From contig CALMRD010000342.1 in assembly GCA_937871625.1 (NCBI GenBank), positions 1 through 35,443 on the forward strand: a stretch of DNA of 35,443 nucleotides, written 5' to 3'. The stretch's first letter is position 1; every line of letters begins with the position of its first letter. Source of the stretch: an uncultured Bacteroidales bacterium (GTDB taxonomy: Bacteria > Bacteroidota > Bacteroidia > Bacteroidales > VadinHA17). The notes below the pieces were generated by a model that saw only the letters and a list, made by a program, of their open reading frames with translations, was not told where the DNA came from and did not search any database. The translations under genes were made by a program, and so were the position numbers. This document shows, piece by piece, positions 10 to 29,695 of the stretch.

Positions 10-2403
10 TCAGTAACAATAATTAAAGTCGGACTCAGCAGAGGCTCCTAACCCGGCAACAGCCTTTTTTGCTGCCTCAAGATGCAGGAACGGCACATGC
101 TCGTAAAATGCCTTTTCCCGTCGCAGGTCCCAGCTTTCCTGCAGCACCTGAAGGGCTTCATCATATTTCCCCATTTTGTATAATCCCCATCCTTTGGTAT
201 GCAAAAAGGAAAAATGTCCGGGACTTGCTTTAAGGGCCTCAGTGACCAGTTTCATGCCTTCATCCGTGTTTCTTTCGTTGTCGAGAAGGAAGTAAGCCAG
301 GTTGTCGATCCGTTCAGGATTACCGGGTTCCAGTGACAGGGCCTCCCGGTAATACTCCTCGGCCCTGTCAGGCATGGCTGATTCATTGAAGCCAAAAGCG
401 CGCAGTGTGGCAATGGTCGCTTCGGAAAGGGGTATGTTTCTTTAGAGAGAAGCAAGTTTGTCCCAATACCTGAGTGCTTTAATGGTGTCACCCATCAACC
501 CATACAGGATTCCCTGCCATCCGGCCAGTTCAATGTCATCAGGAAAATATTGTTCTGCCTTTTTGTAGACTTTTTCCGCCTTCTTATACTGACCGTTTTT
601 TTGATAAGCCTTCCCCAGGTAAATATAATTCAGAGCCCAGTCCGGGATGATATTCCATTTGTCATATATCTGCAACGCTTTCTCATATTCAATAATGGCC
701 TTTTCATATTGCTGCAATAAGAGGTAGCAGTTGCCAAGGTTAAAATAAGTGCCTGTCATCTGGTCATCAAGCTGGATAAGCTGCTTCAGGTACTTGATTT
801 GATCGTGTGGAGTTTCAAAACGACATGCATACACCCAGTTTGCATGTATTTTTTGTTGAACAGACATCCGGTCTGTTTTTTCACATGCTCTGAGGCACCA
901 TTTTTTTGCCTGCTCCAACAGGTAAAGCTTATCGTAGATTGTTGAAAACCAGAATTCAAGCTCGTACTGGTTACTGTAGGCCAGTGATGTCATGATGATG
1001 GGCAGATAGAAGTTTGAGTCAATATCTATCGCCTTTGAAAACCAGTTAATGGCTGAAAGGAAGTCCGATTTATAGAACTCGTTTCTTCCATGAACAAAAT
1101 ACCTGTATGCTTCAGGTGACCAGGTTGACAGGAGAGATGTATTAAGGAGAGGAGTGTTCATCTGCAGTTCAGACAGAATGAGAAAATCTTTCACCTGTGC
1201 TGACAATGAGTCGATCAGAAAAAAAATATTCTCCTCCCGGCAGGGGCCCTCTATCTGAAAAGACCTGTACACCTCCTCTGTTTCCGGGTCAATGATCTGA
1301 GCATAAAGACGGCTGACCGGCCCTGCCTTTTTTATGCTTCCCAGGATCAGGACATCTGCCTCAAGCTTCTGTGAGATAGAGCTGCCTACCGTGGGAGTGA
1401 TGGAGGCATAGTTAACAATCCCCTGACCTCTGACGAGGCTTTTTATCGATTCGGCCTGCCTGACCTTCAGCTCTTCCGTGTTGGAGAGTGAGGATATCAG
1501 GATATCCTGTATCCCTTCCTGCCACATATTCCATACTGTGTCACCGGTAAGGTTCTGAAACGGCATCACGGCCACGGCAATTCTTTCGCCTGACGACCTG
1601 AGACTCGCCAGCTTGTCGCGGTTGAATATTTTTGGCAAAGCAAAAATAGCTGCAATGGCCAGGAGAACAATTAATGCTGTTCCATAGTATATTTTTCTCT
1701 TCTCTGATAAGAGCATTATACCCTTGTCCGGTTTTATGGGTCCAGTGTGACCTTCCTTTGGCAATTCTCCTTTCTGAGAGCTTTCACCTGATAATGGGGC
1801 CGAAACACTCTTTAATCCTGCAACGATCTCTTTTATAGCAATGGCCACTTTGTTAATCTGGTTGCGGTACCTTGTATTGTTAATGTTACTCTTTTCGTCA
1901 TCTTCGGAGATTAAAGGTCTGTTTACTCCGGGTTCCTTATATATGAACTCAATACCGCGAAGGACTCCTCCCAGAACCGCCTCACAAAGCTTCTCATCGT
2001 CGGGGTCCAGGTCGTGGATTCTTACAGGCAGCACCCTGCTTGCCACATTGCCGTTGGGAAGCTTTACTTTCAAGCCGAACTGATCCTTTGATGCCTGTTC
2101 CACAAATGCTTTGAACTCATGTTCCCATGCATAGGAGTTCGGATCACAATAGGTGCGGGAGATGATCGGGATAAATATCAAGCATTTCAGTTTCTCCTTC
2201 AGGGATTCATCTACATCATGGGTCTCAAGCAGACCGTCATGCGGATTGATGTCGAAATAGACGCTGATCTCTTCCTTGAAGGTGGATTCAAGTTCAGTCC
2301 TGAGAGCCTCAACGAACTCACTCACCCATCTGTCGCCCTTATTGTCTTTCTGACGATAGCTGATGAATATGTCGTAATTATATCCTTCGATAATACCTGA
2401 CAT
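10..2403 (-). pseudogene. TIR-like domain / TM / TolB-like / TPR protein, interrupted by an in-frame TAA (442-444)
   Basis: ORF 442..2403 (YNYDIFISYRQKDN..., TM 'IYYGTALIVLLAIAAIFAL', IAVAVMPFQNLTGD, TPRs) ends at CTC TAA AGA. The 121-aa TPR ORF 10..375 is in the same frame: 22 sense codons (RNIPLSEATIATLRAFGFNESA) join the stop to its ATG. Read-through would give about 797 aa, close to paralogs of 811 and 819 aa. Confidence 0.75.
2022..2388. repeat. 367-bp segment identical to 7963..8329 (TIR-encoding)
   Basis: Base-by-base comparison at offset 5941: from 'ttacaggcagcaccctgcttgcc' through 'gtcgtaattatatccttc' with no mismatch. Flanks diverge at once on both sides. Confidence 0.9.
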
Positions 2404-2426
2404 CAGGGTGTTATTTTGTTCATTAT

Positions 2427-2458
2427 CAAAATTAAACCCTTAAAGGGCTAAATGCAAA
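2427..2458 (-). promoter_or_regulatory. Bacteroidota-type promoter (TTTG-N20-TAATTTTG) for the first TIR gene
   Basis: On the minus strand, TTTG (2455-2458), 20 nt, then TAATTTTG (2427-2434), just upstream of the ATG at 2403. Same layout as at 8369-8400. Confidence 0.6.
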
Positions 2459-2659
2459 ATTTTCTTTTACCCCGTTGAACATGGTCAACCTGTCAGACCA
2501 TTAAGTCCTTAAAATCAGCCGAACTTGGATTTGAGGCCGTGCTTGATTTTGCAATTGCTTTAATACAATAAACTGTTGTATCGAAAGCAATTTATTTTTT
2601 ATTGGTTTCCTAATACGTGAAACGCCGCACGTGAAAAGCGAATATTGCTGCCACAATAC

Positions 2660-4042: not shown

Positions 4043-4130
4043 TTTGATAATTCGGATTTAATTGGTCAACAGAGTCTGTGGCTGCATTAAAACTTCGGAG
4101 ATAGTTCTTCAAGTTCAGCAAATCCTGTTT

Positions 4131-6269: not shown

Positions 6270-6304
6270 ATTTCAGAGTTCAGGTTCCATATTTAAGGTT
6301 AAAG

Positions 6305-8371
6305 TTAATACTCCAATCCCAGTTTTCTCAGCAAAGCTATAAAGCGTGGTTCCGCCCGGAGGGATTTAAATGCAGGTTCTACATTCAGGTAGATATAATC
6401 GGTATCAAATTCGTTTACACTGGCTTCGATATAGTCCAATGCTTTCCCCTTATTCCCTCTCAGGGCATATAGAATCGAAATTATTCTTTTGGATAAAGGC
6501 GAGCTGGAAAGTGCATGAAATTCAAGCTCCAGATTAATAATAAAGTCAAGAAAACCATCTATGCCTGATATGTCATAAACCTCCTTCGCTCTATTTTTAT
6601 AAGCAACCAACGACTGATTATCATCTAAAATCTTTTGATATTCATCAATTGCCTCTGTAATGAGACCTTTCATGAAATAGCTTAAGAATGTATAGAAGCC
6701 CACCACGCTTACCGGAAATTCAGGGTCTAACTCTACTGCCTTTTTGCATTGAAAAATAGCTTTATCATAGGATTCAGCAAAATAGTACATAAGCCCACAT
6801 GCTCCGTTCTTTATTGCGGATAAGGGATCAAGCTTTACAGCCTGATTCATATGTTCGGAAGCTGCGTCAAATTTCCCGAACACAGTAAGAAAGAGTCCAT
6901 ACCATTGATGGGCCGAAGCATAATTTGGATTTAATGACAGAGCAGTTTGATAATATCCTTCCGCCTTTTTATAATTGCGTTCAAAGATCTCAGTAATGTC
7001 TGCCAGGGTTGCATAAGCCTCAGCAATATTACTATCAATCGACAGACTTTTCTCTGCATATTCCCGCGCTTTTTTAAAGGATATCTCAGGCTGCATGTAA
7101 TTCCAGTCTGCACAGACCATATAAGCATCAGCCAGTCCGGCATAAGCCAGGGCATACTTATCATCTGATTCAAGGGCCTTCAGGAAGTATTCAATGCTGG
7201 CCAGCAAACCCTCCCTGGTTCTTTTATTCCAGTAGTAGCGGCCAAGCATGTAGAGATCATATGCCCTGATACTTGATGTCTGCTTCCTTTCTTCCGGGTA
7301 TAATTTTACTTTCAGGGCTTCAGTGATTGAACGTGAAACCTTTTCCTGTATCTCAAAAATATTCTCTAGGTTCTCATTATATTTTTCAGCCCAGATATGG
7401 TAATCATAGGCAGCATCTATCAGCTGGGCTGTTATACGGAGGTTATTTCCGGCCTTACGGACGCTGCCTTCAAGCACATACCTGACTTTGACTTTCTCTG
7501 CAATTTCTTTAACTGTGAATTTTGTGCCTTTGAAAGTCATCGCTGAACTCCTTGAGATTACGAGGAGCTCATGAATATGAGACAGGTCTGTAATAATTTC
7601 CTCGGTGAGTCCGTCACTAAAGTATTCCTGTTCCGTATCGGAACTCATATTCTCAAAAGGAAGTACTAAAATAGATTTCTCATTCGCAGTAGGATTGTCG
7701 CTGGTCCGGAGGTCTTTTCTCAGCAAATTCCTTTTCTGAGCCGGTTCATTTTTCAATCCGGCCAAAATTTCATTTATGGCATTGGCGACTTTATTTATCT
7801 GGTTTCTGTATTTTGTCTTGTTCTGGTTCCTCCTATCATCATCATCAGGTTTTAGTGGCCTGTTGACGCCAAGCTCCCCGTAAACAAAATCAACACCTCT
7901 CAGACCTCCATCCAGCACTGATTCACATAAACTGATATCTGCTGTGCTCAGATCATAAATTATTACAGGCAGCACCCTGCTTGCCACATTGCCGTTGGGA
8001 AGCTTTACTTTCAAGCCGAACTGATCCTTTGATGCCTGTTCCACAAATGCTTTGAACTCATGTTCCCATGCATAGGAGTTCGGATCACAATAGGTGCGGG
8101 AGATGATCGGGATAAATATCAAGCATTTCAGTTTCTCCTTCAGGGATTCATCTACATCATGGGTCTCAAGCAGACCGTCATGCGGATTGATGTCGAAATA
8201 GACGCTGATCTCTTCCTTGAAGGTGGATTCAAGTTCAGTCCTGAGAGCCTCAACGAACTCACTCACCCATCTGTCGCCCTTATTGTCTTTCTGACGATAG
8301 CTGATGAATATGTCGTAATTATATCCTTCAATTATGCTTGACAACGGAGCACGGATTTGGTTCATTATCAA
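6305..8371 (-). CDS. TIR-like domain / TolB-like / TPR protein without an evident TM helix
   Basis: YNYDIFISYRQKDNKGDRW...; SILVLPFENMSSDTEQEYFSDGLTEEI; TPRs. The ORF-track start at 8371 is TTG and overlaps the predicted -7 box. Real start is more likely ATG 8365 or a codon slightly downstream. Confidence 0.85.
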   Translation of the reverse strand: MIMNQIRAPLSSIIEGYNYDIFISYRQKDNKGDRWVSEFVEALRTELESTFKEEISVYFDINPHDGLLETHDVDESLKEKLKCLIFIPIISRTYCDPNSYAWEHEFKAFVEQASKDQFGLKVKLPNGNVASRVLPVIIYDLSTADISLCESVLDGGLRGVDFVYGELGVNRPLKPDDDDRRNQNKTKYRNQINKVANAINEILAGLKNEPAQKRNLLRKDLRTSDNPTANEKSILVLPFENMSSDTEQEYFSDGLTEEIITDLSHIHELLVISRSSAMTFKGTKFTVKEIAEKVKVRYVLEGSVRKAGNNLRITAQLIDAAYDYHIWAEKYNENLENIFEIQEKVSRSITEALKVKLYPEERKQTSSIRAYDLYMLGRYYWNKRTREGLLASIEYFLKALESDDKYALAYAGLADAYMVCADWNYMQPEISFKKAREYAEKSLSIDSNIAEAYATLADITEIFERNYKKAEGYYQTALSLNPNYASAHQWYGLFLTVFGKFDAASEHMNQAVKLDPLSAIKNGACGLMYYFAESYDKAIFQCKKAVELDPEFPVSVVGFYTFLSYFMKGLITEAIDEYQKILDDNQSLVAYKNRAKEVYDISGIDGFLDFIINLELEFHALSSSPLSKRIISILYALRGNKGKALDYIEASVNEFDTDYIYLNVEPAFKSLRAEPRFIALLRKLGLEY
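7963..8329. repeat. 367-bp segment identical to 2022..2388 (TIR-encoding)
   Basis: Partner copy of 2022..2388, same orientation. Confidence 0.9.
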
Positions 8372-8400
8372 ATTTAAACCAATAGCAAGCTAAAAGCAAA
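8369..8400 (-). promoter_or_regulatory. Bacteroidota-type promoter (TTTG-N20-TAAATTTG)
   Basis: On the minus strand, TTTG (8397-8400), 20 nt, TAAATTTG (8369-8376). Exact match to TTTG/TAnnTTTG. Confidence 0.65.
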
Positions 8401-17200: not shown

Positions 17201-18775
17201 TCAGGACAGTGCCTCTGCCCTGAGGCTTTTCAGAGTTTCGTTAAATGACCTGCAAAGGAGCTGATGATTCTCCTCAATATCTGCTTTGCTCTTCATCTTA
17301 TGTTTCTGTCCGTCTCTCAGATAGTCTCCCGATTCGTAATAGTCAAAGAATCCGGTCATGGTTTCAGCCAGGAAAAGATTGCTCTGAGCGACTGTATCCC
17401 TGTATCTTGTCCGGCACTCCTCCCTGGTAATGGTTGAATTACCAAAGTAGTCGGAGACTGCCAGCCAATTCCTCACCCATTTTGCGAGGTTAACAACTCC
17501 CTGCGAACCCCACAGCCACTCTGCAAGGCATTCTGTAACAGCTGACCAGCAGGCATCAAGTGATTCACTTCTGAGGTTATAATCGAGATACCCCGGTCTG
17601 CCCTTGAGTCTGCCCTGTTCTCTCAGCTCTCTCACAAGTTTAGTGCTGAAGTATGGCATCAGTTTAAGAAATGTTATTGGTGCAGTGCCATTGCTGCAAA
17701 CCTTCTCAAGGAATTTCAGATTTTCCCTGAGTGATTTGAAGCTTGTTTCAGGCTGGAACATCATCATGCCGTAATCATAACCGATATCAAGTCTATTAAG
17801 TGTCTCAACAGCAGCGGTGCCTGTCGTTGCTCTCATCCTTTTGTTGAGACGTGTCAGTCCTTCGTCAGTTCCGTCCTCCAGCCCCAGGAAGACCAGAAAG
17901 AGGCCATGCTTTTTCATCAACAGGAAAGTATCCGGGTCTACCTCATCAGGTCTGCAGTTAATCTTCCACATCACCTTGTTGTGTAGGCCAATACGTTCCA
18001 GCTCACTGCAAAATGATTTAATCCAGCTATTTCCGTCTGCACATTTCACCGGGAAGTCGTCATCCTGAAACAGAAACACGGTACATCTCTTTTCCGTGTA
18101 AAGCTGATGCATCTCGCGTATAACCATTTCAGGACTCCTGATACGTTTTACCGGGCCGCCTGCCTGCCGGTAGAACTCCCCCGTATTGCAGAATGAGCAG
18201 TCATATACGCATCCCCTGCCTGAAATGATAGTTGTGAACTTCCTTCCCGGTGCATACTCTCCGGGAGGCTTCCTGACAGGAAAAGGGAAGCTGTCAAGAT
18301 CCTTTTCGAGCTTCCTGAGAGGTGTCGTGACAATATGACCGTCTTCCCGGAATGCTATGTTTCTGACTCTTTTCCAATCGTTGTGAGCCAGGAGACATTT
18401 AACCAGTTCAAGGAAGGTATACTCGCCTTCAAACCGGACTATGGAATCCAGTTCCGGTATCAGCCGGAAAAGTTTATCCGGATGCAGACTGGCATAATAT
18501 CCGCCGGCAGTAAAGTGACAATTGATACCGCCTTTCCTCAGGTACCTGGCAAGATGAGCAAACTCTTCGATGAAAACCTCAAATATCACCGAGAATCCGA
18601 CAGCAACAGGATCATGTCTTCTGATGCAGGCCAGGATCTCCTCATTATCATACCTGAGATCAACCATCCTCGATTCCATGCCTGCCGTGTTCAGTACAGA
18701 CCTGAGGTATCCCACCCCCAGATTTTCTTCTTCTCCGAAGGCAACCAGAAAGACGGGATGTGCAGAGATTCTCAA
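17201..18775 (-). CDS. B12-binding-domain radical SAM protein
   Basis: Rossmann-like N-terminus (NLGVGYLRSVLNTAG...FTAGGYYASLHPDKLFRLIPELDSIVRFEGEYTF), then CxxxCxxC 'RGCVYDCSFCNTGEF'. Start codon is TTG, overlapping the upstream ORF stop (TTGA). Confidence 0.85.
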   Translation of the reverse strand: MRISAHPVFLVAFGEEENLGVGYLRSVLNTAGMESRMVDLRYDNEEILACIRRHDPVAVGFSVIFEVFIEEFAHLARYLRKGGINCHFTAGGYYASLHPDKLFRLIPELDSIVRFEGEYTFLELVKCLLAHNDWKRVRNIAFREDGHIVTTPLRKLEKDLDSFPFPVRKPPGEYAPGRKFTTIISGRGCVYDCSFCNTGEFYRQAGGPVKRIRSPEMVIREMHQLYTEKRCTVFLFQDDDFPVKCADGNSWIKSFCSELERIGLHNKVMWKINCRPDEVDPDTFLLMKKHGLFLVFLGLEDGTDEGLTRLNKRMRATTGTAAVETLNRLDIGYDYGMMMFQPETSFKSLRENLKFLEKVCSNGTAPITFLKLMPYFSTKLVRELREQGRLKGRPGYLDYNLRSESLDACWSAVTECLAEWLWGSQGVVNLAKWVRNWLAVSDYFGNSTITREECRTRYRDTVAQSNLFLAETMTGFFDYYESGDYLRDGQKHKMKSKADIEENHQLLCRSFNETLKSLRAEALS

Positions 18776-18987
18776 CCTTTGCTTTCCAGGTTCTCGATTT
18801 CCGCTATTACTCCCTCAATGAGTTTTATCTCCTCCAGGGCGCAGTTTCTAAAGTAATTAAGATTCAGGATAGCAATGGCTTTTTGCTGGGCGGCAGTGAG
18901 TTCACATTTTGTCAGGAACTGCAGCGGATTCATCAGGAATGGTCTGGGGAAGGGACTCATAAACTCCATTTCATCGCCGTTTTTCAT
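18772..18987 (-). CDS. Small 71-aa protein translationally coupled to the radical SAM gene (possible precursor or accessory peptide)
   Basis: MKNGDEMEFMSPFPRPFLMNPLQFLTKCELTAAQQKAIAILNLNYFRNCALEEIKLIEGVIAEIENLESKG; ATG start; stop overlaps the radical SAM start by 4 nt; begins 34 nt after the upstream TIR gene. Confidence 0.6.
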   Translation of the reverse strand: MKNGDEMEFMSPFPRPFLMNPLQFLTKCELTAAQQKAIAILNLNYFRNCALEEIKLIEGVIAEIENLESKG

Positions 18988-19021
18988 GATTTCAGTTTTT
19001 AGTTTGACACTAACGTTATTA

Positions 19022-21481
19022 TTATAATGAATTGCTCAATTTTTTGGTCATTATCTTAAACTCGGGTGTTTCTGTCATGCTTTTCCATGTGGGATCAACT
19101 TTCATGAGATTCATTGAGAACCACGAAGGATTGGTCAGCAGATATTCCACCTGTCGGATCGCATTGGGATAATCAGCGGTCATGGCATAGATCTTGGCCA
19201 GGTTGATGATCAAGTCATTTTTTACCAGGTTGTCATCACTGGCAAGCTGCACTGCGGTTTTGCCGGCTATGACTGCATCGGTTGCATTTCCCAGGCCTGC
19301 ATAGGTCAGGCCGCAGCAGCTGTATGAATACCAGTCGTCAGGATTTGACATTATCATCATCTTATAGACACGGAGGGCAGAGTCATAGTAAGACCTTGTC
19401 ATCTGTTCATTGTTGAGGAGGCTGTATGCCGTTGCTGTTGTGAGGTATCTCAGCCCGGGATACTCATAGTCACCATCTGTTGACGACAGTACTTCATTCA
19501 GGGCATTATTATAACTACCCTCGTAGATATTCAGAAGGATCTTATAATATTTCTGTCTCTCACCTGTTCTTCTAATGACAGTATCGAGCACTTCTCTGGC
19601 CTTCACAGTATTTCCGTCCTTCAGAATGAATGCTTCCATCATGTTGGTATATGGTCCGGACCAGTCAGGCATTACCTCCGTCGCCTTCCGAAAGAAGGCT
19701 ATGGCTGTGTCATAGCTGTGCATATAGGCAAAGGAGCTGCCTATGTTGATAAGTACCAAGGCGTCCTGTGGTTCTTCTTCGATAACCTCTCTTACCAGCT
19801 CCTGTGATCTGTTCCAGTCACCCATTTTACGGTATACCATAGCCATGTAGAACAGGGGATGGTAATTTGCCGGGTCCATCTCCCCGGCCATTCTGAACTG
19901 GGAGAGGGCTTCATGATAGTCTTCGATGCAGTAATAGTTATAGAATCCGAGTGCCACCCGGGCATCCGGCAGGTCGTTCTCCAGCTCCAAAGCTCTTTCA
20001 GCATCAGCCTTGCATTTGTCGACATGTGACGGATCCAGCTGTCCGGTATAGTAACCCCATGATCTTGCAATGGCACGCCTGGCATAAGCCAGGGCAAATT
20101 CAGGGTCCTCGTCTATTGCCCTGTCATACATTTCGATTGCGGCGGCAAAGCTGATAGAGTCAACAAACTTATTTCCTGCCAGCAGATAGTATAAGGCATT
20201 ATCAGACAGAACATTGGCTTTCAGGTAGTCTTTGTATGCGCCCGCGCTTCCGGTAGGATTCTTCTCAATTCGTGCCTTTTCTTCAGGTGTGAGTACTGTC
20301 TCAAGTATTGCAGCAGTTTTAATGGCAATGTCTGTCTGCATCCCGTGAAGTGCATCCCATGTCCCTTCAAAGACATCACTCCACAGTTGTTCATCCATCC
20401 TCACACTGATGAGTTTGACAGTGATCCTTACAATCTCATTGAAGATCTGATAGCTGCCCTCAATAATGTAGTTGGTTCTGAGTTCCTGCCCAATATCCGG
20501 TATTGATTTGGTGGCTGCCCGATATTTCATAACAGAGGTTCTTGGCCTGACAACAAGGTCATTGATTTTGCACAGCTGCGAGATGACCTCTTCAGTCAGC
20601 GCATCTCCCAGCCACAGATTATTTTCATCAGCACCTATACTTTCGAAGGGCAGGACGGCAATGGATTTTTCTTCCAGTTTACCTGCTGCTGACATATTGC
20701 CGATGAATTTGGACAGGGCGAACAACAAGGCAGCTGATGCCACAATTATCATGAAGGTGATAAGAGCACGGCGCGAGGCAACCGATCTTATAGTGGTCGG
20801 TTTCTCCTGAAGCCTGGCTACTGTTTCAGGTTCTTCCCATGGCTCTCTCCGTCCATGTTTTTCTTTATGTGGCGGAGGATTCTCTGACTGCAGGGCGGAG
20901 ACTATCTCCCTGATGGCATTGGCCGTTTTGTTTATCTGGTTGCGGTATCTTGTGCCGTACTGGTTTTTGTGTTCATCATCAACCGGGGTCAGGGGCCTGT
21001 TGACCCCGGGTTCCCTGTAGATGAAATCAATAGCCCGGAGTACCCCTCCGATCTCGTTTTCTATCAATTCCCTGTCTTCACTGTCGAGCTCATGTATCCT
21101 GACAGGCAGTATCCTGCTTGCCACGTTACCGCTGTGGAGGGTAACCTTCAGTCCGAGCCTGTCGGCCGAGGCCTGCCTTATATAAGCCCTGAACTCATGT
21201 TCCCAGGCGAATGATCTGGGGTCACAGTAAGTACGCGAGATGACCGGAATGAAGATCAGACATTTGAGTTTTTGCTTCAGGGATTCATCGACATCATGGG
21301 TGTCAAGCAGTCCGTCATGCGGATTGAGGTCGAAGTAGACGCTTATCTCTTCTTTGAAGGTTGCTTCAAGTTCAGCCCTGAGATGATCAACGAATTCAGT
21401 AACCCAGCCGTCATACCTGTTGTCATTCTGACGGTAGCTGATGAAGATGTCATACTCATATCCCGCTATGAGAGAAGCCAT
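19022..21481 (-). CDS. TIR-like domain / TM / TolB-like / TPR protein
   Basis: YEYDIFISYRQNDNRYDGW...SRTYCDPRSFAWEHEFRAY; TM 'ALITFMIIVASAALLFAL'; SIAVLPFESIGADENNLWLGDALTEEVI; TPRs. Confidence 0.85.
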   Translation of the reverse strand: MASLIAGYEYDIFISYRQNDNRYDGWVTEFVDHLRAELEATFKEEISVYFDLNPHDGLLDTHDVDESLKQKLKCLIFIPVISRTYCDPRSFAWEHEFRAYIRQASADRLGLKVTLHSGNVASRILPVRIHELDSEDRELIENEIGGVLRAIDFIYREPGVNRPLTPVDDEHKNQYGTRYRNQINKTANAIREIVSALQSENPPPHKEKHGRREPWEEPETVARLQEKPTTIRSVASRRALITFMIIVASAALLFALSKFIGNMSAAGKLEEKSIAVLPFESIGADENNLWLGDALTEEVISQLCKINDLVVRPRTSVMKYRAATKSIPDIGQELRTNYIIEGSYQIFNEIVRITVKLISVRMDEQLWSDVFEGTWDALHGMQTDIAIKTAAILETVLTPEEKARIEKNPTGSAGAYKDYLKANVLSDNALYYLLAGNKFVDSISFAAAIEMYDRAIDEDPEFALAYARRAIARSWGYYTGQLDPSHVDKCKADAERALELENDLPDARVALGFYNYYCIEDYHEALSQFRMAGEMDPANYHPLFYMAMVYRKMGDWNRSQELVREVIEEEPQDALVLINIGSSFAYMHSYDTAIAFFRKATEVMPDWSGPYTNMMEAFILKDGNTVKAREVLDTVIRRTGERQKYYKILLNIYEGSYNNALNEVLSSTDGDYEYPGLRYLTTATAYSLLNNEQMTRSYYDSALRVYKMMIMSNPDDWYSYSCCGLTYAGLGNATDAVIAGKTAVQLASDDNLVKNDLIINLAKIYAMTADYPNAIRQVEYLLTNPSWFSMNLMKVDPTWKSMTETPEFKIMTKKLSNSL

Positions 21482-21498
21482 GTTATTGGTTCAATTCT

Positions 21499-21530
21499 AT
21501 AAAGTTAAGAAAGAGTGAGAGGCAAGTCAA
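21499..21530 (-). promoter_or_regulatory. Leader block conserved between the two block-2 TIR genes (possible promoter)
   Basis: ataaagttaagaaagagtgagaggcaagtcaa, 27/32 identical to 24082..24113 and at the same 17-nt distance from ATG. On the minus strand it holds a TAACTTTA box with TTG 20 nt upstream. Confidence 0.4.
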
Positions 21531-21628
21531 GAATATTTCAATCGAAGCCGGTTGATCAATAAGAAAACTATGCCGCAAGCGTCACGTGACAAAAATATTT
21601 TTATCCAGTTTATGACTGCCTGGTCAGG

Positions 21629-24064
21629 TCAATGCCTATTGAAGTATTCATCAAGCAGAGCCTGGAAGCGGATGTCAAACTGCAGTGCTGACAGGTCAGG
21701 ACTGGCTTTCAGCATGTAGAGATCCCTGTACCCGTTTTTAAGGGCTAGTTCAATATTTTCAAGGGCTCCGGGGATATTACCCTGTATGCAGAAAACCCTT
21801 GCAAAGGAATAGTATTGTGAAGAATCCAGGTCTTTAGCTTTCTGAAGCATCTGCCGGGAGATGTCCATCTCGCCCATACGTGCCGTAACAGCAGCCAATG
21901 AAGTGTAGGTACCATAATAGTCAGGAAATGCCTTAGTCCATTTTCTCTCTGCTATTTCTCTGAACTTCTGAAAATTACTCTGGGCTTCCGGCTGATTACC
22001 CATTGCCTCATTATTTACCCCAAGATCATAGTATGCAGGTGCCTCTCCGGGATACCTGGTGATGATTTCTCCGAGCACGGCCATCGCTTCTGAATAATTA
22101 TCCAGTCGCAGGTAAGCATAAGCGAGCCTGTATTGATTCATTACAATATCAGGATTGAGCCCGAAAGCTTTCTGGAAATACCCAATAGCCGTAGCAATAC
22201 TATCGCGGCAAAACCATGCAGATCCCATGTAAATGTACCCCCAGGGATTTTCAGGATTATCGGAAATCATTTTTTCTGCCCAGACAATCAAAGAATCGAT
22301 TTTTCCCAGGTACTCTTCATATATCCATAAAATTGCCGCATATGACAGTGCCTGATCAGGATTAATACTGACCGCCTTCTTGTATTCTTTCAATGCAAGT
22401 TCGTAATGGCCGGACTGCTGATGATACCAGCCAAGGTTATTATGGACGGTCGGATCATCCGGATACAATCTCTTCAGAATATCCATATTGGCAATGGCCT
22501 TATCATTATCATTTTCCACATGCTCAGCATAAAACGCCGTGATGCTGTACTTTTCCCTGTCAGTAAGGTTTTCAGCATTTTCCAGCGCCTCACTGAGAAG
22601 TTCCTTACCTTTCGGATCATTGAACTTCTCGAGCAGTATGTTCCCCAGTGATGCTTTTGCCGCAGTAAAACCCGTATCAATATTGAGTGCATTCTCATAA
22701 TATTTCCTGGCGTTTTTAAAATCGGCAAATAGGTGACTCTCTATCGCCAGGGAATATTGTTGCAGGGCTTTCAGGGAAGAGGTGGTAACCTTCGCCAGAG
22801 GCTTATCCTGTAAGGATATTTGATACCTTGATTCACCAAGGTCCCGGCGGATCTTCCTGCTCAGCTTGTCAATTGCGGGCAGTATCTCATCCTGTGTCCT
22901 GGCATACAGCACCTCAGACTTCAAAAGGTCTCCGGTCTCTGTGTCAATGATCCTTGCCGTGATGGCATATTGGTTTCCGGCCTCGCTTATGCCGGGCACT
23001 ATCAACAGGCCTATCCCTTCCCTGACAGAAATTTCCCTTCCCGTTATCTCATCAACAGATATTTGATCTTTCATCTCCATTCTTGCCAGGGTCTCAATCA
23101 TTCTTGATCTCGTGAAGACATTGAGATAACGTGACTGCCCTGCACTGAGTGAGAATGCAGTATAAAGCGATTTGTCGAAAACCGGATTATCAGTAAGGTT
23201 TTCAAAATCAGTGATCAGAATCCAGTCGCGTTTGGAGAATGGCAATGTGCTTCCGCCGGTGAAGAGATAGATGGCAATAAGTGCCAGTACTATTAATGAG
23301 GAACCGGATGTAAGAGCCAGCTTCTTATTCCCATGAGAGGGGGGGGTGTCTTTGCGCAGGCTATCTGTTGAGGCATCTGGCGGTGTAGCCGGATCGGGAT
23401 CGCCTTTTCCGGAAATGTCGGGTGTGGCGATTTCAGTTTCCTGATCTTCTGTACCGGACACCGATGCACTTATCAGGCCGGAAATCACTTCATCAATTGC
23501 GTTTGCTGCCTTGTTGATCTGGTTGCGATAGCTTATTTTGTGCAAATTCTTTTCCTCTGAGTCCCTGGGTGTAAGAGGACGATTTACGCCAGGTTCGGAA
23601 TAGATAAACTCAATGGGCCTGAGAAACCCTCCCAGAACATTTTCAACAAGAGACCTGTCCTCGGCTTTCAGTTCATGAATCTGAACAGGCAGCACTCTCA
23701 TGGCAACATTGCCTCCCGGAAGTTTCACCCTGAGTCCGAACCGGTCATTGTTGGCCTGCTCCATAAATGCCCTGAACTCATGCTCCCAGGCGAATGAATT
23801 CGGATCACAGTAGGTGCGGGAGATGACAGGAATGAAGATCAGGCATTTGAGTTTTTCCTTAAGGGTAGCATCAACATCATGTGTCTCAAGTAATCCATCA
23901 TGAGGACTGATGTCGAAATAGACGCTGATCTCCTCTTTGAATGTAGCCTCCAGCTCGCTCTTCAGATGTTCGACAAACTCCGTCACCCAGCCGTCATACT
24001 TATTGTCTTTCTGGCGGTAGCTGATGAAGATGTCGTAGTTGTATCCGGGGATCAGGCTGGCCAT
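21629..24064 (-). CDS. TIR-like domain / TM / divergent TolB-like / TPR protein
   Basis: YNYDIFISYRQKDNKYDGW...SRTYCDPNSFAWEHEFRAF; TM 'SLIVLALIAIYLFTGG'; DWILITDFENLTDNPVF...; TPRs. Confidence 0.85.
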   Translation of the reverse strand: MASLIPGYNYDIFISYRQKDNKYDGWVTEFVEHLKSELEATFKEEISVYFDISPHDGLLETHDVDATLKEKLKCLIFIPVISRTYCDPNSFAWEHEFRAFMEQANNDRFGLRVKLPGGNVAMRVLPVQIHELKAEDRSLVENVLGGFLRPIEFIYSEPGVNRPLTPRDSEEKNLHKISYRNQINKAANAIDEVISGLISASVSGTEDQETEIATPDISGKGDPDPATPPDASTDSLRKDTPPSHGNKKLALTSGSSLIVLALIAIYLFTGGSTLPFSKRDWILITDFENLTDNPVFDKSLYTAFSLSAGQSRYLNVFTRSRMIETLARMEMKDQISVDEITGREISVREGIGLLIVPGISEAGNQYAITARIIDTETGDLLKSEVLYARTQDEILPAIDKLSRKIRRDLGESRYQISLQDKPLAKVTTSSLKALQQYSLAIESHLFADFKNARKYYENALNIDTGFTAAKASLGNILLEKFNDPKGKELLSEALENAENLTDREKYSITAFYAEHVENDNDKAIANMDILKRLYPDDPTVHNNLGWYHQQSGHYELALKEYKKAVSINPDQALSYAAILWIYEEYLGKIDSLIVWAEKMISDNPENPWGYIYMGSAWFCRDSIATAIGYFQKAFGLNPDIVMNQYRLAYAYLRLDNYSEAMAVLGEIITRYPGEAPAYYDLGVNNEAMGNQPEAQSNFQKFREIAERKWTKAFPDYYGTYTSLAAVTARMGEMDISRQMLQKAKDLDSSQYYSFARVFCIQGNIPGALENIELALKNGYRDLYMLKASPDLSALQFDIRFQALLDEYFNRH

Positions 24065-24081
24065 GCTGTCAATTCATTTTG

Positions 24082-24113
24082 ATAAAGTTACGAAACAGAC
24101 AGAGGCAAATCAA
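24082..24113 (-). promoter_or_regulatory. Leader block conserved with 21499..21530 (possible promoter)
   Basis: ataaagttacgaaacagacagaggcaaatcaa, 17 nt upstream of the ATG at 24064. Confidence 0.4.
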
Positions 24114-24183
24114 ATAAATTATAGTCTGAGGGTTATCTCCGGTTTTCGACGGATTGAGGAGAGTCGCCGTCCTTTGCATACTC

Positions 24184-26013
24184 TCAGATCCTGATTCCTA
24201 TGATGGTAATGTCGTCAGTCTGGTCTTCATCTTTCTCCTCACGCCATCGGTCAAATTCTTCATAAAGAATGTCACCCTGCTCAGGCATGGGATATTTATT
24301 GATCTTCAACAGCAGATCACGGAGTCTTTTCCAGCTATACCGCCGGTGACTGCCGCCCCCGAACTGGTCGGCAAACCCGTCAGAACATATATAGAGTGCG
24401 TCATGCGTGTTCAGGCAAAGAGTTTTTGTTGAAAAGCTGTAAGTGCCATTTTTGAAGTGATCTTCCGAAACAGTGCCTGAAAGATTGCCGGAGATCTTTC
24501 CGTCGGAAACATGAAAAATGGCATTACCTGCACCCGAATATGTCAGTTTCCCGGTGTTGGTATCAAGATTACACAGGATGATTGTCATGTCGTCTGACAC
24601 GGCAAGTTCTGCGGTATCCTTCCGCAGGAATCTGCGGATGCCTGAATAGAGATGGCTGAGGGCTTCAGCAGGGTCGGTTATCCTAAGGATATTTACTGTC
24701 TGATCAAGTATTCCATATCCAATTGTGCTTATAAGTGCAGCCGGGATGCCATGTCCGGTACAGTCGGCGAGGCCAAAAATCACATGACCATCATGTCTGC
24801 TGAAGAAGTAGAAATCGCCACTAACAATATCCTTGGGTTCAAAGAGCAGGAAGCTTTCAGGGAAGCACTCCCTGATTGACAGATTGTCAGGAAGGAACGC
24901 TTCCTGTATGTGCCTTGCGTAGTTGTAGCTGCCCTCCACCTCACTCAGAGAAAGCCTGATCTTCTCGTCAATTGAGGTGAGTTTTTCACTGATCAGCGGG
25001 GAGTTTTCAGCCAGCAGGTTAATACCGGCACTAAGTTCATTTGTGCCTGAAAGAAGCTTATAGATGCTGCTCTGGGGTTTGATGGCATACGACAGCTTGC
25101 TGATCCGGTCAGGTGAGACAGGGTAGGCTTCATATCTGATATCCCGGAGTATGGCAGGTGTCAGTCGCACCAGCTCACGGTCCTTTTCTTTCTCGTCTTC
25201 ACTGAGCTCTGCATAAGGCACCAGGCTGGGGTGTATCTTCTTTCGTTCGTCCCTTTTTATCCCGGTCTTCCATCCGTTAAGCCTTTTCTCCCAGCTCCAC
25301 CTCAGATGCTCGACCCTTGCCATTGTCTCAATCTCCTGATCATTAAGATGGAGAGCCCGTGGTTTGTAGCCCTTCCTGACCGGTCTTATCCTGTAACCTA
25401 TGGCCAGTAATCTCGTTGGTATATGAAAGGCATTGTCAATGTTTGACCGGAGGATCTCATCCGGCAGATCATCAAACTCAGTCATGCCTGGGAGGATGGT
25501 GCCGGATGTGCCGGCCCCCTGTTTCTTTATCTCGCGAAGGTAACTTGCATGAACAGCCCTGGCGATTTTCATTAAAAGGGATTTGTTCACACCTGCAATC
25601 TCTTCCTGCCTGATGATCTCGTATCCGGCTTTTTTAAGACTGGCAGGGATCAGATAGTTCAGTTCGCGGAAAAATTGCCTTCTGTCAGCGGTATGAGACC
25701 CACCGGGCAGGCTGTCAAGATCCATCTCAACAAGAGTGGTTATCTCCTCCTCAGTGATTATGCATGTCCGGCAGAAGTCCCGGTACAGCCTGAGATGCAA
25801 TCCCAAAGCCTGGAGTTTTTGAGGTATCCCTGCCGCATAGTTAATCCAGAACTGCCTATCTGCTTTCCATGGATCTGCAAGTTTCCTGTGCTGAGCGGCG
25901 GCGGCCTGTATTATGTTAGTCCTTCTGCAATCATTAAGAAGACTCTGCGCAACACTTTTGGCCTGAAACTTTATAAAATCTGCCTGATCGGTAAATCCGT
26001 CTTCAGGTTTCAT
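24184..26013 (-). CDS. RyR-domain + SpoIIE/PP2C-type serine phosphatase (SiaA/RsbU-like output)
   Basis: RyR signature 'MARVEHLRWSWEKRLNGWKTGIKRDERKKIHPSLVPYAELSEDEKEKDRELVRLTPAIL'; SpoIIE signature 'PKDIVSGDFYFFSR...GLADCTGHGIPAALIS...ICSDGFADQFGG...QTDDITIIGIRI'. ATG overlaps the SiaC-like stop (ATGA). Confidence 0.85.
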   Translation of the reverse strand: MKPEDGFTDQADFIKFQAKSVAQSLLNDCRRTNIIQAAAAQHRKLADPWKADRQFWINYAAGIPQKLQALGLHLRLYRDFCRTCIITEEEITTLVEMDLDSLPGGSHTADRRQFFRELNYLIPASLKKAGYEIIRQEEIAGVNKSLLMKIARAVHASYLREIKKQGAGTSGTILPGMTEFDDLPDEILRSNIDNAFHIPTRLLAIGYRIRPVRKGYKPRALHLNDQEIETMARVEHLRWSWEKRLNGWKTGIKRDERKKIHPSLVPYAELSEDEKEKDRELVRLTPAILRDIRYEAYPVSPDRISKLSYAIKPQSSIYKLLSGTNELSAGINLLAENSPLISEKLTSIDEKIRLSLSEVEGSYNYARHIQEAFLPDNLSIRECFPESFLLFEPKDIVSGDFYFFSRHDGHVIFGLADCTGHGIPAALISTIGYGILDQTVNILRITDPAEALSHLYSGIRRFLRKDTAELAVSDDMTIILCNLDTNTGKLTYSGAGNAIFHVSDGKISGNLSGTVSEDHFKNGTYSFSTKTLCLNTHDALYICSDGFADQFGGGSHRRYSWKRLRDLLLKINKYPMPEQGDILYEEFDRWREEKDEDQTDDITIIGIRI

Positions 26014-26420
26014 TGCATCTCTGATTCAATGAATTCGAAAGGCAGGTCAACAATCTGTGCCATTTCCCTGCCGGCTTCAAGCATGTCATCATCATCCTTT
26101 ACGTAATACCATCTGGCGGAAGCCTTAATATTTTGGGCATGCAACCTTGCCAGTATCTTGCAGATATCAAGTATGCACTTTGCTGATCCGGAATTGAAAT
26201 AATTGAAATTAAAATTGATCATAACTGGCTTGCTGTTGTCATCCGACCTCAGCAGAGACTCACTGAAATCGTTCAGCCAATCAAGTATCGGGTAGTAAAA
26301 CTCCCTTACATCCTGTGGCCTGGACTCACCCTCAATCTCCAGAAAATGCTCCTCGTGGTCAAGGATGACCCTGGGTGTAAAGACTGTGGGGCTTATGATC
26401 AGCTTTTCCATGGGGGTCAT
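26010..26420 (-). CDS. SiaC-like (DUF1987) regulatory phosphoprotein
   Basis: PTVFTPRVILDHEEHFLEIEGESRPQDVREFYYPILDWLNDF...INFNFNYFNSGSAKCILDICKIL matches the SiaC/DUF1987 pattern as I know it; coupled to the phosphatase gene. Confidence 0.8.
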   Translation of the reverse strand: MTPMEKLIISPTVFTPRVILDHEEHFLEIEGESRPQDVREFYYPILDWLNDFSESLLRSDDNSKPVMINFNFNYFNSGSAKCILDICKILARLHAQNIKASARWYYVKDDDDMLEAGREMAQIVDLPFEFIESEMQ

Positions 26421-26611: not shown

Positions 26612-29600
26612 ATGAGCGAGCCCATTCTGAAAGCACTGATCCGTTTATTTGCCCTGATAAGTGATATTCACCCTGACCGGGAGATATCGAGCAGGGGACG
26701 GGATGTGGTGAGGCTGTTCCTGTCAAAGCACCTTAACAATGAGCAGGTGGCAAAATATCTGACAATGTTTGATGAATATCTCAGGCTATACTATCCTGAC
26801 GTTATTTCGAAAGACAGCATCAGGGACAGGAAGCGGACCTCGCTGACAGCAATGAGGATCCTTGCCATCTGTGAGAAGATTAATGAGGAGCTCGAGCAGA
26901 AGCAGAAGATATATGTGCTGGCACAGCTGATGGACTTTATCTCTTTCAGTGCCGAGATCACCGGGAAGGAGATGGAGTTTCTTGAGACAGTGGCTACGGC
27001 ATTTAATATTCACCAGACTGAATACAATGATATTCTGGGCTTCATCCTCGAACCCCACCAGGTCAGCATCAGAGATGAGAGGCTGCTGATCATCGACAGC
27101 CGGGAAGCATCTGACAGGCAGAAGATTAAGCACCTTTGCAATGAGAACCTCAAGGGCCGACTGCTTTTCCTGAATGTTGCAAGCACCAATACCCTTCTGA
27201 TGAAGTTTAATGGCAGGGAGGATCTTGTGCTGAACGGGCAGAATATTTTTCCGGAACAGACTTATGTGTTTGACCACGGGTCAACAATCAGGGGTGCCTC
27301 TCTGAATGCTATTTACTATAACGATGTTGCAGAGGTCTTTACAGGGGCGGAGTTCAAGCTCAGGGTTGCCCTCGATGCCACGGATATCAGCTTACGGTTC
27401 AGAAACAGTGAAAACGGTGTACAAAATCTGACTATCCACGAGGAATCGGGGAAGCTGGTTGGGATAATGGGAGGGAGCGGCGTCGGGAAATCGACCCTGT
27501 TGAATCTCCTTAGCGGAATTTTCATGCCGGAGACGGGGAACGTGCTTATCAACGGGTATGATATTCATACATCCGAAGGTAAGGATCACCTGAAAGGGGT
27601 AATAGGGTTTGTGCCCCAGGATGATCTTCTTTATGAGGAACTGACCGTCTTCCAGAACCTCTGGTACAATGCCCGCATGTGTCTCAACAATTACGGCGAG
27701 TCTGCGATCAGGGAGGAGGTTGAAAGCATACTGAAGGATCTTGACCTTTATGAGATAAAAGATCTGAAAGTGGGCAGTCCTGTCAACAAGATAATCAGCG
27801 GGGGCCAGAGAAAAAGACTGAATATTGCCCTTGAGCTTATCAGGGAACCGACCATACTTTTTGTCGATGAACCCACTTCAGGGCTTTCATCGGTTGATGC
27901 GGATACGGTAATGACCATGCTCAAGGAACAGACCTACAAGGGGAAGCTGGTTATTACAACGATACATCAGCCGGGATCGGATATCTACAAGATGTTTGAC
28001 CGTATAATGATCCTTGACAGGGGTGGCTATTTGATTTTCTATGGCAATCCCAACGAAACTGTAACCTGGTTCAAGACCCACACTAACCTGGCCAATGCTC
28101 TTGAAGATCAATGCATCAACTGTGGCAATGTGGATACCGACCAGCTGCTTCGTATCATTGAATCCAAAGTGGTCAACGAGCATGGCAGGCCCACTCATCT
28201 GAGAAGAGTCTCACCAGCAGAATGGGCCGACCTGTACGAGGCAGAGAAAGGCAGCAAACAGCGCGGAAAAACAATAACCCGTGACCCGTTGCCTGAAAAT
28301 AAATATTCTATTCCCGGGCTGGCAAAACAGTCGGCAATCTTTTTTATGAGAGATCTCTTATCCAGGATTGCTGACAGGCAATATATGATTGTCACACTGC
28401 TTGGAGCGCCTCTTCTGGCAGTCCTGCTTGCCTTTTTTACCAGGGATGTATCGGGGCAGGCCTATAGCTTAAGTGAGAACGAAAACCTGCCGGCATATAT
28501 GTTCATGTGTGTTGTTACGGCGTTTTTCATGGGACTGATCCTGAGTGCCGAGGAGATCGTTAAAGACCGTAAGATCCTTAAGCGGGAGTCTTTTCTTAAG
28601 CTCAGCTGGTTCAGCTATATCAATTCCAAGGTAATGATGATGTTCATTATCTCTTCGTTACAGACGATAGCTTTCGTGCTGGCCGGGAACCTTATTCTTG
28701 GGATTAACGGGATGACTCTCACATACTGGATTGTACTGTTCAGTTCCTCCTGTCTTGCCAATCTGATAGGCCTGAACATCTCATCTGCATTCAACTCGGT
28801 AGCCACGATCTACATTCTCATACCCTTTATAATCATACCGCAGCTTCTGTTCAGCGGCGTCCTGGTCAAGTTCGACAATCTCCACAGGAGGGAGGGCACT
28901 GTCAATGAATATGTGCCTGTTCTTGGTGATCTGATGCCTGCCCGCTGGGCATACGAAGCTCTTGCCGTGGAGCAGTATAAAAGCAACAGGTTTGAAGAGA
29001 AGTTTTTCATGTATGATATGGAGATCAGCCAGAACAACTGGTATGCATCATTTCTGACAGAGGCTCTCCGGAGAGATCTTTGGGTGTGCCGCAATTATTA
29101 TGACAGTTCTGAGTACAGGGACGTTGTTACGGACAACTTTGGGAAAATCACACGGTACATTCAGAAATTGTCTGTTCTTGCCGGTTTTGATCCTCCCCCC
29201 AATGAGCTTATCAGATCACTGAACAGTGACGGGTTTGATCCTTCTGTAGCTGAGATGATGGAACATTTGCTTGACAGCCTGGCAGACAGATTTAAAACTG
29301 TCAGGAACATCAACATGGCTAAAAAAGACTCAGTTACCGCAGTACTGATAGCAAAAATGGGCAAGAGCGCATTCCTGGAGCTTAAAGAAAATTATACCAA
29401 CAAGAGGCTCCGGGAGATACTCCTTGATGAGTACAATACGACCAAGAGTATTGAAACCAGGGGGAAGATCATTCAGAAGTATGAGCCTGTTTACATGAAG
29501 CCTGTATCCGGGAACGGCCGTGCGCATTTTTATGCACCGTACAAGAAGATAGGGAACATATTGGTTGACACCTTCCTCTTCAACATCATTGTACTCTGGC

Positions 29601-29695
29601 TTGTCTCCCTGGTACTTTACCTTGCCCTCTACCTGAAGGTTTTAAAGAAGATTACCGGCTCCGGGTTCGCTATCAGGAATGTCAGGAGGCGGTAG
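26612..29695 (+). CDS. TerB-like N-terminus fused to ABC ATPase and ABC-2/ABCG-type membrane domain
   Basis: N-terminal 'LIRLFALISDIHPDREISSRGRDVVRLFL...'; Walker A GGSGVGKST, signature ISGGQRKRLNIALEL, Walker B ILFVDEPTSGLS; C-terminal TM region. Confidence 0.85.
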   Translation: MSEPILKALIRLFALISDIHPDREISSRGRDVVRLFLSKHLNNEQVAKYLTMFDEYLRLYYPDVISKDSIRDRKRTSLTAMRILAICEKINEELEQKQKIYVLAQLMDFISFSAEITGKEMEFLETVATAFNIHQTEYNDILGFILEPHQVSIRDERLLIIDSREASDRQKIKHLCNENLKGRLLFLNVASTNTLLMKFNGREDLVLNGQNIFPEQTYVFDHGSTIRGASLNAIYYNDVAEVFTGAEFKLRVALDATDISLRFRNSENGVQNLTIHEESGKLVGIMGGSGVGKSTLLNLLSGIFMPETGNVLINGYDIHTSEGKDHLKGVIGFVPQDDLLYEELTVFQNLWYNARMCLNNYGESAIREEVESILKDLDLYEIKDLKVGSPVNKIISGGQRKRLNIALELIREPTILFVDEPTSGLSSVDADTVMTMLKEQTYKGKLVITTIHQPGSDIYKMFDRIMILDRGGYLIFYGNPNETVTWFKTHTNLANALEDQCINCGNVDTDQLLRIIESKVVNEHGRPTHLRRVSPAEWADLYEAEKGSKQRGKTITRDPLPENKYSIPGLAKQSAIFFMRDLLSRIADRQYMIVTLLGAPLLAVLLAFFTRDVSGQAYSLSENENLPAYMFMCVVTAFFMGLILSAEEIVKDRKILKRESFLKLSWFSYINSKVMMMFIISSLQTIAFVLAGNLILGINGMTLTYWIVLFSSSCLANLIGLNISSAFNSVATIYILIPFIIIPQLLFSGVLVKFDNLHRREGTVNEYVPVLGDLMPARWAYEALAVEQYKSNRFEEKFFMYDMEISQNNWYASFLTEALRRDLWVCRNYYDSSEYRDVVTDNFGKITRYIQKLSVLAGFDPPPNELIRSLNSDGFDPSVAEMMEHLLDSLADRFKTVRNINMAKKDSVTAVLIAKMGKSAFLELKENYTNKRLREILLDEYNTTKSIETRGKIIQKYEPVYMKPVSGNGRAHFYAPYKKIGNILVDTFLFNIIVLWLVSLVLYLALYLKVLKKITGSGFAIRNVRRR

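Follow-up and report, generated by a model that had tools for sequence, protein, structure and literature searches.

Can a signal made by TIR domains reach a bacterial phosphoprotein through an RyR domain? This question is raised by a locus on contig C342 of the Bacteroidales-like metagenome-assembled genome (MAG) G000 (3.48 Mb). The contig, 35,443 nucleotides (nt) in length and referred to as the window, carries a run of six minus-strand open reading frames (ORFs) spanning 17201-26420, which encode a SiaC-family phosphoprotein, a RyR-SpoIIE phosphatase, two TIR-TPR proteins (TIR2 and TIR1), a small protein of 71 amino acids (aa), and a radical SAM enzyme. The gene order and its conservation, the domain identities, the ligand residues of the RyR domain, the intact metal and [4Fe-4S] motifs, and the selection on the small ORF were observed. 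The six genes are almost certainly a conserved functional unit. We propose that this cassette would be a signalling unit in which a SiaC phospho-switch is coupled to NAD+ chemistry of the TIR type. The full chain, from an envelope-sensing TIR protein through an ADP-ribose (ADPR)-type signal, the RyR domain, and the phosphatase to SiaC, is slightly favoured by the evidence described below.

Gene organization of the cassette

The cassette genes overlap by 4 nt at the SiaC/RyR-SpoIIE and small ORF/radical SAM junctions, and are separated by 119 nt (RyR-SpoIIE to TIR2), 147 nt (TIR2 to TIR1), and 34 nt (TIR1 to small ORF). The start codon of the radical SAM gene is TTG, and its overlap with the small ORF is TTGA. 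All of the ORFs, overlaps, and gaps claimed in a preliminary description of this locus were found where it had placed them. No terminator-like sites on the minus strand were detected in the intergenic gaps of the cassette. The features are as follows.

26010..26420, minus strand: SiaC-family phosphoprotein, 136 aa; PF09345 (2e-31), aligns with PDB 6k4f
24184..26013, minus strand: RyR-SpoIIE phosphatase, 609 aa, soluble, with tandem RyR-like repeats and a PP2C/SpoIIE domain; PF02026 (7e-15), PF07228 (2e-18)
25084..25584, minus strand: second (intact) RyR repeat, residues about 144-310; aligned with the phage protein RyDEP, modelled with AlphaFold2, and matched to Repeat12 of human RyR3
24187..24792, minus strand: SpoIIE/PP2C catalytic domain, residues 408-608; PF07228
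21629..24064, minus strand: TIR2, a TIR-transmembrane (TM)-sensor-TPR protein, 811 aa
23495..24064, minus strand: TIR domain of TIR2; AlphaFold2 predicted local distance difference test (pLDDT) 82.6, W93 and E96 invariant
19022..21481, minus strand: TIR1, a TIR-TM-sensor-TPR protein, 819 aa
18772..18987, minus strand: small protein, 71 aa; putative partner or substrate of the radical SAM enzyme
17201..18775, minus strand: B12-binding radical SAM enzyme, 524 aa; PF02310 (1.5e-15), PF04055 (2.4e-12)

Conservation and distribution

When the contigs of about 85,000 species genomes were scanned with a profile of the TIR alignment, 76 loci were obtained, nearly all in Bacteroidales or Bacteroidetes MAGs. 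All genomes were MAGs, and many loci were cut by contig ends. All six genes were found in unchanged order in seven other Bacteroidales MAG loci (L111, L112, L113, L114, L115, L135, and L182), L135 having an additional TIR-TPR gene inserted after RyR-SpoIIE. The protein identity among the eight loci was 55-91%, except for the small ORF (27-90%). Partial or rearranged forms were observed in L116, L117, L120, L133, L150, L162, L180, and L221. The right flank varied: a CPBP protease was encoded there in the window and L135, a sorting-tail protein and an M29 peptidase in L111, L112, and L115, and an M49 peptidase with others in L113 and L114. These flanking genes were housekeeping rather than defence genes. 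A chance neighbourhood was ruled out, since eight genomes share the gene order despite differing flanks.

The commonest non-TIR neighbour families in the 76 loci, with the window uncounted, were RyR-SpoIIE (14), SiaC (13), ABC transporter (10), radical SAM (9), and the 71-aa ORF (7); among the members counted for SiaC, ABC, and radical SAM, a few are more distant relatives. The preliminary description had made its proposal depend on the co-occurrence of RyR-SpoIIE/SiaC with TIR-TPR genes in related genomes. Indeed, this co-occurrence was present in seven other genomes, and the sole RyR gene was a RyR-SpoIIE gene adjoining TIR in 14/14 genomes checked. G796 was reached through a different locus, yet its RyR-SpoIIE gene also lies beside TIR, and it is thus an unbiased case.

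Among 393 sampled genomes of the order, RyR was found in 37 and the TIR subfamily in 7, and the four genomes sampled from the family of G000 had neither. G000 has one RyR gene and five complete TIR-TPR genes, all inside the window; a sixth, incomplete copy lies at one end of contig C11. That an abundant TIR-TPR family had landed anywhere was ruled out by its presence in only 7/393 genomes and by the location of the five complete G000 copies on one contig. One plasmid match was found (Hymenobacter, 53% for TIR), with cassette genes not annotated alongside. Furthermore, short contigs labelled archaea, Dojkabacteria, or Clostridia (L122, L144, L160, and L166) carried the same TIR at 74-77% identity; these records could be mis-binned Bacteroidales DNA.

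TIR receptor proteins

An AlphaFold2 model of the TIR domain of TIR2, based on a 33-sequence alignment, gave the RUN1 TIR NADase as the top PDB match, followed by other TIRs including SARM1 and AbTir. The matches were modest (TM-scores 0.4-0.6), and a search of PDB sequences with the TIR profile was uninformative, the identification having come from the fold search only. W93 and E96 were invariant across the 33 sequences, and the TIR domains of TIR1 and TIR2 were 76% identical. The TIR-TM make-up described earlier was borne out by this fold search, Pfam remaining under its cut-off, and by one TM segment in each protein (239-257 in TIR1). TPRs were assigned by Pfam. As for the TolB part that had been described with it, the Pfam assignment was weakly supported (FlgO/CsgG-like), although TIR2 residues 249-567 resembled NCBIfam TIGR04510 (2e-68), with a score of 231 under the family cut-off of 400. 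We suggest that TIR1 and TIR2 would be membrane proteins with a cytoplasmic TIR domain, a single TM segment, and a sensor/TPR part that is probably periplasmic. In response to an envelope cue, the TIR domains may convert NAD+ to an ADP-ribose-type nucleotide.

RyR-SpoIIE phosphatase

In phages, proteins with an RyR domain (RyDEP) use H75, W78, H100, and D117 to bind 2'cADPR and 3'cADPR, TIR products that are isomers of cyclic ADP-ribose (cADPR), and one of these proteins also cleaves them (PMC13232231, a 2026 preprint). When RyDEP (gp78) from the DyoEdafos record was aligned with the RyR-SpoIIE proteins, the H/W/H/D ligand positions were kept in 12/12 full-length sequences, the window residues being H236, W239, H261, and D278. 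In the model of residues 1-345, two similar helical units were observed, and the first was without the ligand residues. In the PDB, this RyR-region model came closest to Repeat12 of human RyR3 and to an RyR chimera of B. thetaiotaomicron and human sequence, with E about 1e-5 and TM-scores by target of 0.5-0.6. A search with full-length RyR-SpoIIE as the query retrieved SpoIIE domains only. In the PP2C half, the metal-site motifs were complete (SGDFY at 398, TGHG at 419, SDGF at 544, and DDIT at 600). This half matched the NCBIfam SiaA model at 6e-47 with 160.5 bits, under the cut-off of 700, and the protein had no TM segment. These results suggest that the RyR region probably senses the ADPR-type product of the TIRs. 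Binding of the nucleotide to the tandem RyR region would then change the phosphatase activity.

The RyR region might instead act as a brake that removes the TIR product by hydrolysis or sequestration, in the manner of phage RyDEP, with the phosphatase domain answering something else. The RyR-SpoIIE protein shares with RyDEP the PF02026 fold and all four ligand residues, including the catalytic pair H75/D117 (H236/D278 in the window), and the RyDEP of DyoEdafos has glycosidase activity, whereas two homologues act as sponges (PMC13232231). However, the remaining tested phage homologues bound without cleaving, and the residues alone therefore do not imply catalysis. Moreover, a complete PP2C domain is fused in every full-length orthologue (Pfam on three), which suggests that the ligand controls the enzyme to which RyR is fused. 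We consider this alternative unlikely. Unlike RyDEP, the protein is cellular, fused to a phosphatase, and encoded alongside the TIR itself; it is thus predicted to be probably a receiver and not an evasion enzyme.

Another explanation is that the TIRs are scaffolds without NADase activity that signal by protein contact, and that RyR reads ATP or ADP-ribose in an envelope or metabolic stress pathway. Indeed, RyR3 Repeat12 binds the adenine nucleotides ATP/ADP according to the PDB titles, and the genes flanking the cassette are not those of defence. Sensor/TPR proteins also carry other N-termini, and one occurs with a small ORF and a radical SAM gene yet TIR-free in L216, as described below. On the other hand, RyR and this TIR family are paired at two unlike loci: besides RyR-SpoIIE, the gene for a TrkA_N-RyR protein in G241 stands immediately ahead of two TIR-TPR genes, a second and differently built pairing. 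The invariance of W93 and E96 and the NAD+-cleaving TIRs among the best fold matches likewise speak against mere scaffolds, and we regard this explanation as improbable.

SiaC, SiaB kinase, and the ABC transporter

In P. aeruginosa, the phosphorylation of SiaC at T68 is set by the SiaA (PP2C) phosphatase and the SiaB kinase (PMC7647112). All ten SiaC sequences from the cassettes had Ser at the position equivalent to T68. SiaC scored 60.7, below the P. aeruginosa equivalog cut-off of 150, and PF09345 was above its cut-off. SiaB-family genes were found in 13/13 genomes searched (in G000 on contigs C14 and C128). Furthermore, a SiaB-SiaC fusion adjoins RyR-SpoIIE in L162 and L117, and probably also occurs in G791, judged by position and ORF length. 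The phosphatase very probably acts on SiaC. We propose that it would set the phosphorylation of the SiaC Ser, countered by a kinase of the SiaB family whose gene lies elsewhere in the genome; this kinase is essential to the scheme and has to work in trans here. Three observations lend support to the sequence from TIR through RyR and the phosphatase to SiaC, namely RyDEP as a precedent (PMC13232231), the conservation of the ligand residues, and these SiaB-SiaC fusions.

Divergent from the cassette lies the following gene.

26612..29695, plus strand: ABCG-type transporter, 1027 aa; PF00005, PF01061

The transporter gene was found beside the cassette in L111, L112, L113, L115, L117, L133, L135, L162, and L182. 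It belongs to the unit, its constancy as a neighbour equalling that of the radical SAM gene, and the extent of six genes given in the preliminary description was consequently incomplete. At a second locus of G000 on C128 (L219:7745-11889), SiaB and SiaC are encoded with an ABCG transporter paralogous to that of the window, and the phosphatase, TIR, and RyR are absent from that locus. The combination of the SiaB-SiaC pair with this paralogue is a hint that the SiaC target is the ABC transporter; SiaC would then act upon a partner, most likely the divergent transporter.

Small ORF and radical SAM enzyme

The small ORF was 71 aa in length in 8/8 loci, and its 4-nt overlap with the radical SAM gene was kept in 7/8. 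Its ratio of nonsynonymous to synonymous substitution rates (dN/dS) was 0.10-0.34 in the few pairs with unsaturated synonymous sites, indicating purifying selection. A spurious ORF was ruled out by this ratio and the constant length. In a comparison with the leader/core arrangement of ribosomally synthesized and post-translationally modified peptides (RiPPs), conservation ran along the entire length, and no family match was found. The CxxxCxxC motif of the radical SAM enzyme was present (CVYDCSFC at residue 189), and among the cassette genes the radical SAM gene best tracked the divergence of the small ORF (rho 0.84). We suggest that the small protein and the B12 radical SAM enzyme would together be a linked branch for peptide modification, with the same receptors driving it.

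In a comparison of window 17201-18987 with L135:13365-15151, the identity was 42% for the small ORF and 66% for the radical SAM enzyme, versus 88% for SiaC and 83% for RyR-SpoIIE. The low identity at the peptide end may reflect quicker divergence or replacement.

In G124, contig C36 (L216:6164-10062) encodes a TPR protein, a 72-aa ORF, and then a B12 radical SAM enzyme 47% identical to that of the window. The TPR protein is related to the C-terminal part of TIR1 and its N-terminus is different; the 72-aa and 71-aa ORFs were likened by position, sequence homology not being shown. G124 was without this TIR family and without an RyR gene. Because the trio of TolB-TPR protein, small ORF, and radical SAM gene is also found without TIR, the sensor-TPR protein, small protein, and radical SAM enzyme are a separable submodule joined to TIR. 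The trio in G124 is possibly a stand-alone peptide modification module. The radical SAM enzyme and peptide had been regarded as a plain output of the SiaC branch, and the occurrence of both in G124 with TolB-TPR alone contradicts this.

These TIR-free loci also bear on whether the cassette consists of two or three neighbouring and functionally separate modules, namely SiaC/RyR-SpoIIE/ABC, the TIR-TPR pair, and sensor-TPR/small ORF/radical SAM. The G124 trio and the SiaB-SiaC pair with the ABC paralogue on C128 fit such a division. Similarly, the divergence correlations group SiaC with RyR (rho 0.92), TIR2 with TIR1 (0.95), and the small ORF with the radical SAM gene, and the other cassette genes are absent from most of the 76 TIR loci. 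However, the cross-module correlations were high too (RyR-TIR1 0.92 and TIR1-radical SAM 0.89). The six-gene order and near-constant short spacing are kept in eight genomes despite differing flanks, and RyR-SpoIIE was seen solely beside TIR-TPR genes. Separate modules thus seem to us a poor explanation compared with a single unit.

Other TIR-TPR genes

Three further TIR-TPR paralogues are encoded in the window.

442..2403, minus strand: TIR-TPR paralogue, 653 aa
4131..6269, minus strand: TIR-TPR paralogue, 712 aa
6305..8371, minus strand: TIR-TPR paralogue without a TM segment, 688 aa; the real start is possibly closer to 8341

The last of these, having no TM segment, may be cytosolic. A 460-aa ORF without family assignment (2660-4042) sits among the three paralogues (window 442-8371). 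A promoter pattern of the Bacteroidales type (TTTG, 17-23 nt, TANNTTTG) was matched only twice in the window, on the minus strand at 2427-2458 and 8369-8400, both times at or shortly upstream of TIR-TPR paralogue starts; these matches are statistically weak, with 0.8 expected and at least two in 18/100 shuffles. In other genomes, a 356-376-aa protein without known family adjoins TIR-TPR genes in seven loci (L123, L130, L137, L150, L162, L180, and L186), often accompanied by a DUF4956 membrane protein (5 loci). Five to seven TIR-TPR genes are arrayed consecutively in L129, L131, L169, and L176, which suggests receptor expansion and diversification.

Comparison with known systems

The preliminary description had called the system undescribed, and this was supported. 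The gene order recurs in the seven other genomes, and the system was not described in the open-access literature searched on RyR with SpoIIE, TIR with SpoIIE, and TolB/TPR with TIR in Bacteroidetes. PADLOC detected nothing relevant in the six cassette proteins, with one weak PDC-M51A match (radical SAM), nor in ten more proteins, of which nine flank other cassettes. A known defence system was ruled out by these PADLOC results.

The cassette resembles Thoeris in that the TIR gene adjoins a protein with a domain able, as judged by its ligand residues, to bind TIR-made cADPR isomers. In Thoeris (TIR protein ThsB, nucleotide-gated effector ThsA, and later types), the sensor is SLOG or Macro, whereas it is RyR here. 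The output here is a protein phosphatase with SiaC, and the TIRs are membrane receptor-like. No SLOG, Macro, or other known Thoeris sensor or effector domain was found in the six cassette proteins.

As in SiaABCD (PMC7647112, PMC8457831), a PP2C/SpoIIE phosphatase adjoins a SiaC-family phosphoprotein, and a SiaB-family kinase is available, fused in some relatives. In contrast to SiaA, which is a membrane phosphatase, the enzyme here is soluble and an RyR input replaces the SiaA N-terminal part; the phosphosite is Ser and not Thr, and an ABC transporter is a constant partner. No GGDEF domain, as expected for the diguanylate cyclase SiaD, was found among the scanned proteins. A canonical SiaABCD system was ruled out, both the SiaA N-terminus and SiaD being missing.

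In actinobacterial VMAP/FtsH ternary conflict systems with FxSxx peptide processing, TIR and TPR proteins are likewise encoded beside peptide and radical SAM genes (PMC7159879). There the radical SAM enzyme is SPASM-type and accompanied by a metallopeptidase, whereas the present one is B12-binding and has no peptidase; vWA, MoxR, and AP-ATPase are not in the present cassette. TIR2 is similar over 249-567 to TIGR04510 (putative peptide modification system cyclase), although its N-terminus is TIR and not cyclase. TIGR04510 members are encoded next to a putative modified peptide.

Strength and meaning of the model

Several points weigh against the proposed chain. The Pfam TIR matches were weak (E 0.013 and 0.057, under the cut-off), and the catalytic Glu of the TIR is putative. 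Adenine nucleotides of other kinds may be ligands of RyR domains, given that RyR3 binds ATP/ADP, and in the TrkA_N-RyR protein that neighbours TIR in G241, the second ligand His is missing. No kinase is encoded in the cassette of the window. Since the loci were gathered via the TIR gene, the share of RyR-SpoIIE without a TIR neighbour is known from the sampled genomes only. The topology, the nature of the output, and every enzymatic, binding, and regulatory step were inferred. The cassette could serve in defence or equally in other stress signalling.

Known TIR signals act directly on gated effectors, and to our knowledge none acts via a protein phosphatase and a phospho-switch. Tentatively, at somewhat short of even chances, the cassette may represent a new type of signal pathway, in which an NAD+-derived second messenger from transmembrane TIR receptors is turned by an RyR-phosphatase into a SiaB/SiaC switch with transporter and modified-peptide outputs. 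So far, the binding of TIR products by RyR has been a matter of phage countermeasures or of analogy with animal ryanodine receptors. If the present proposal is true, it would give the prokaryotic RyR domain a cellular, non-phage role as a receptor of TIR signals. A conserved bacterial operon with both TIR and RyR bears on what cellular RyR domains sense and on the origin of the cADPR-RyR linkage, a question directly testable using two purified proteins.

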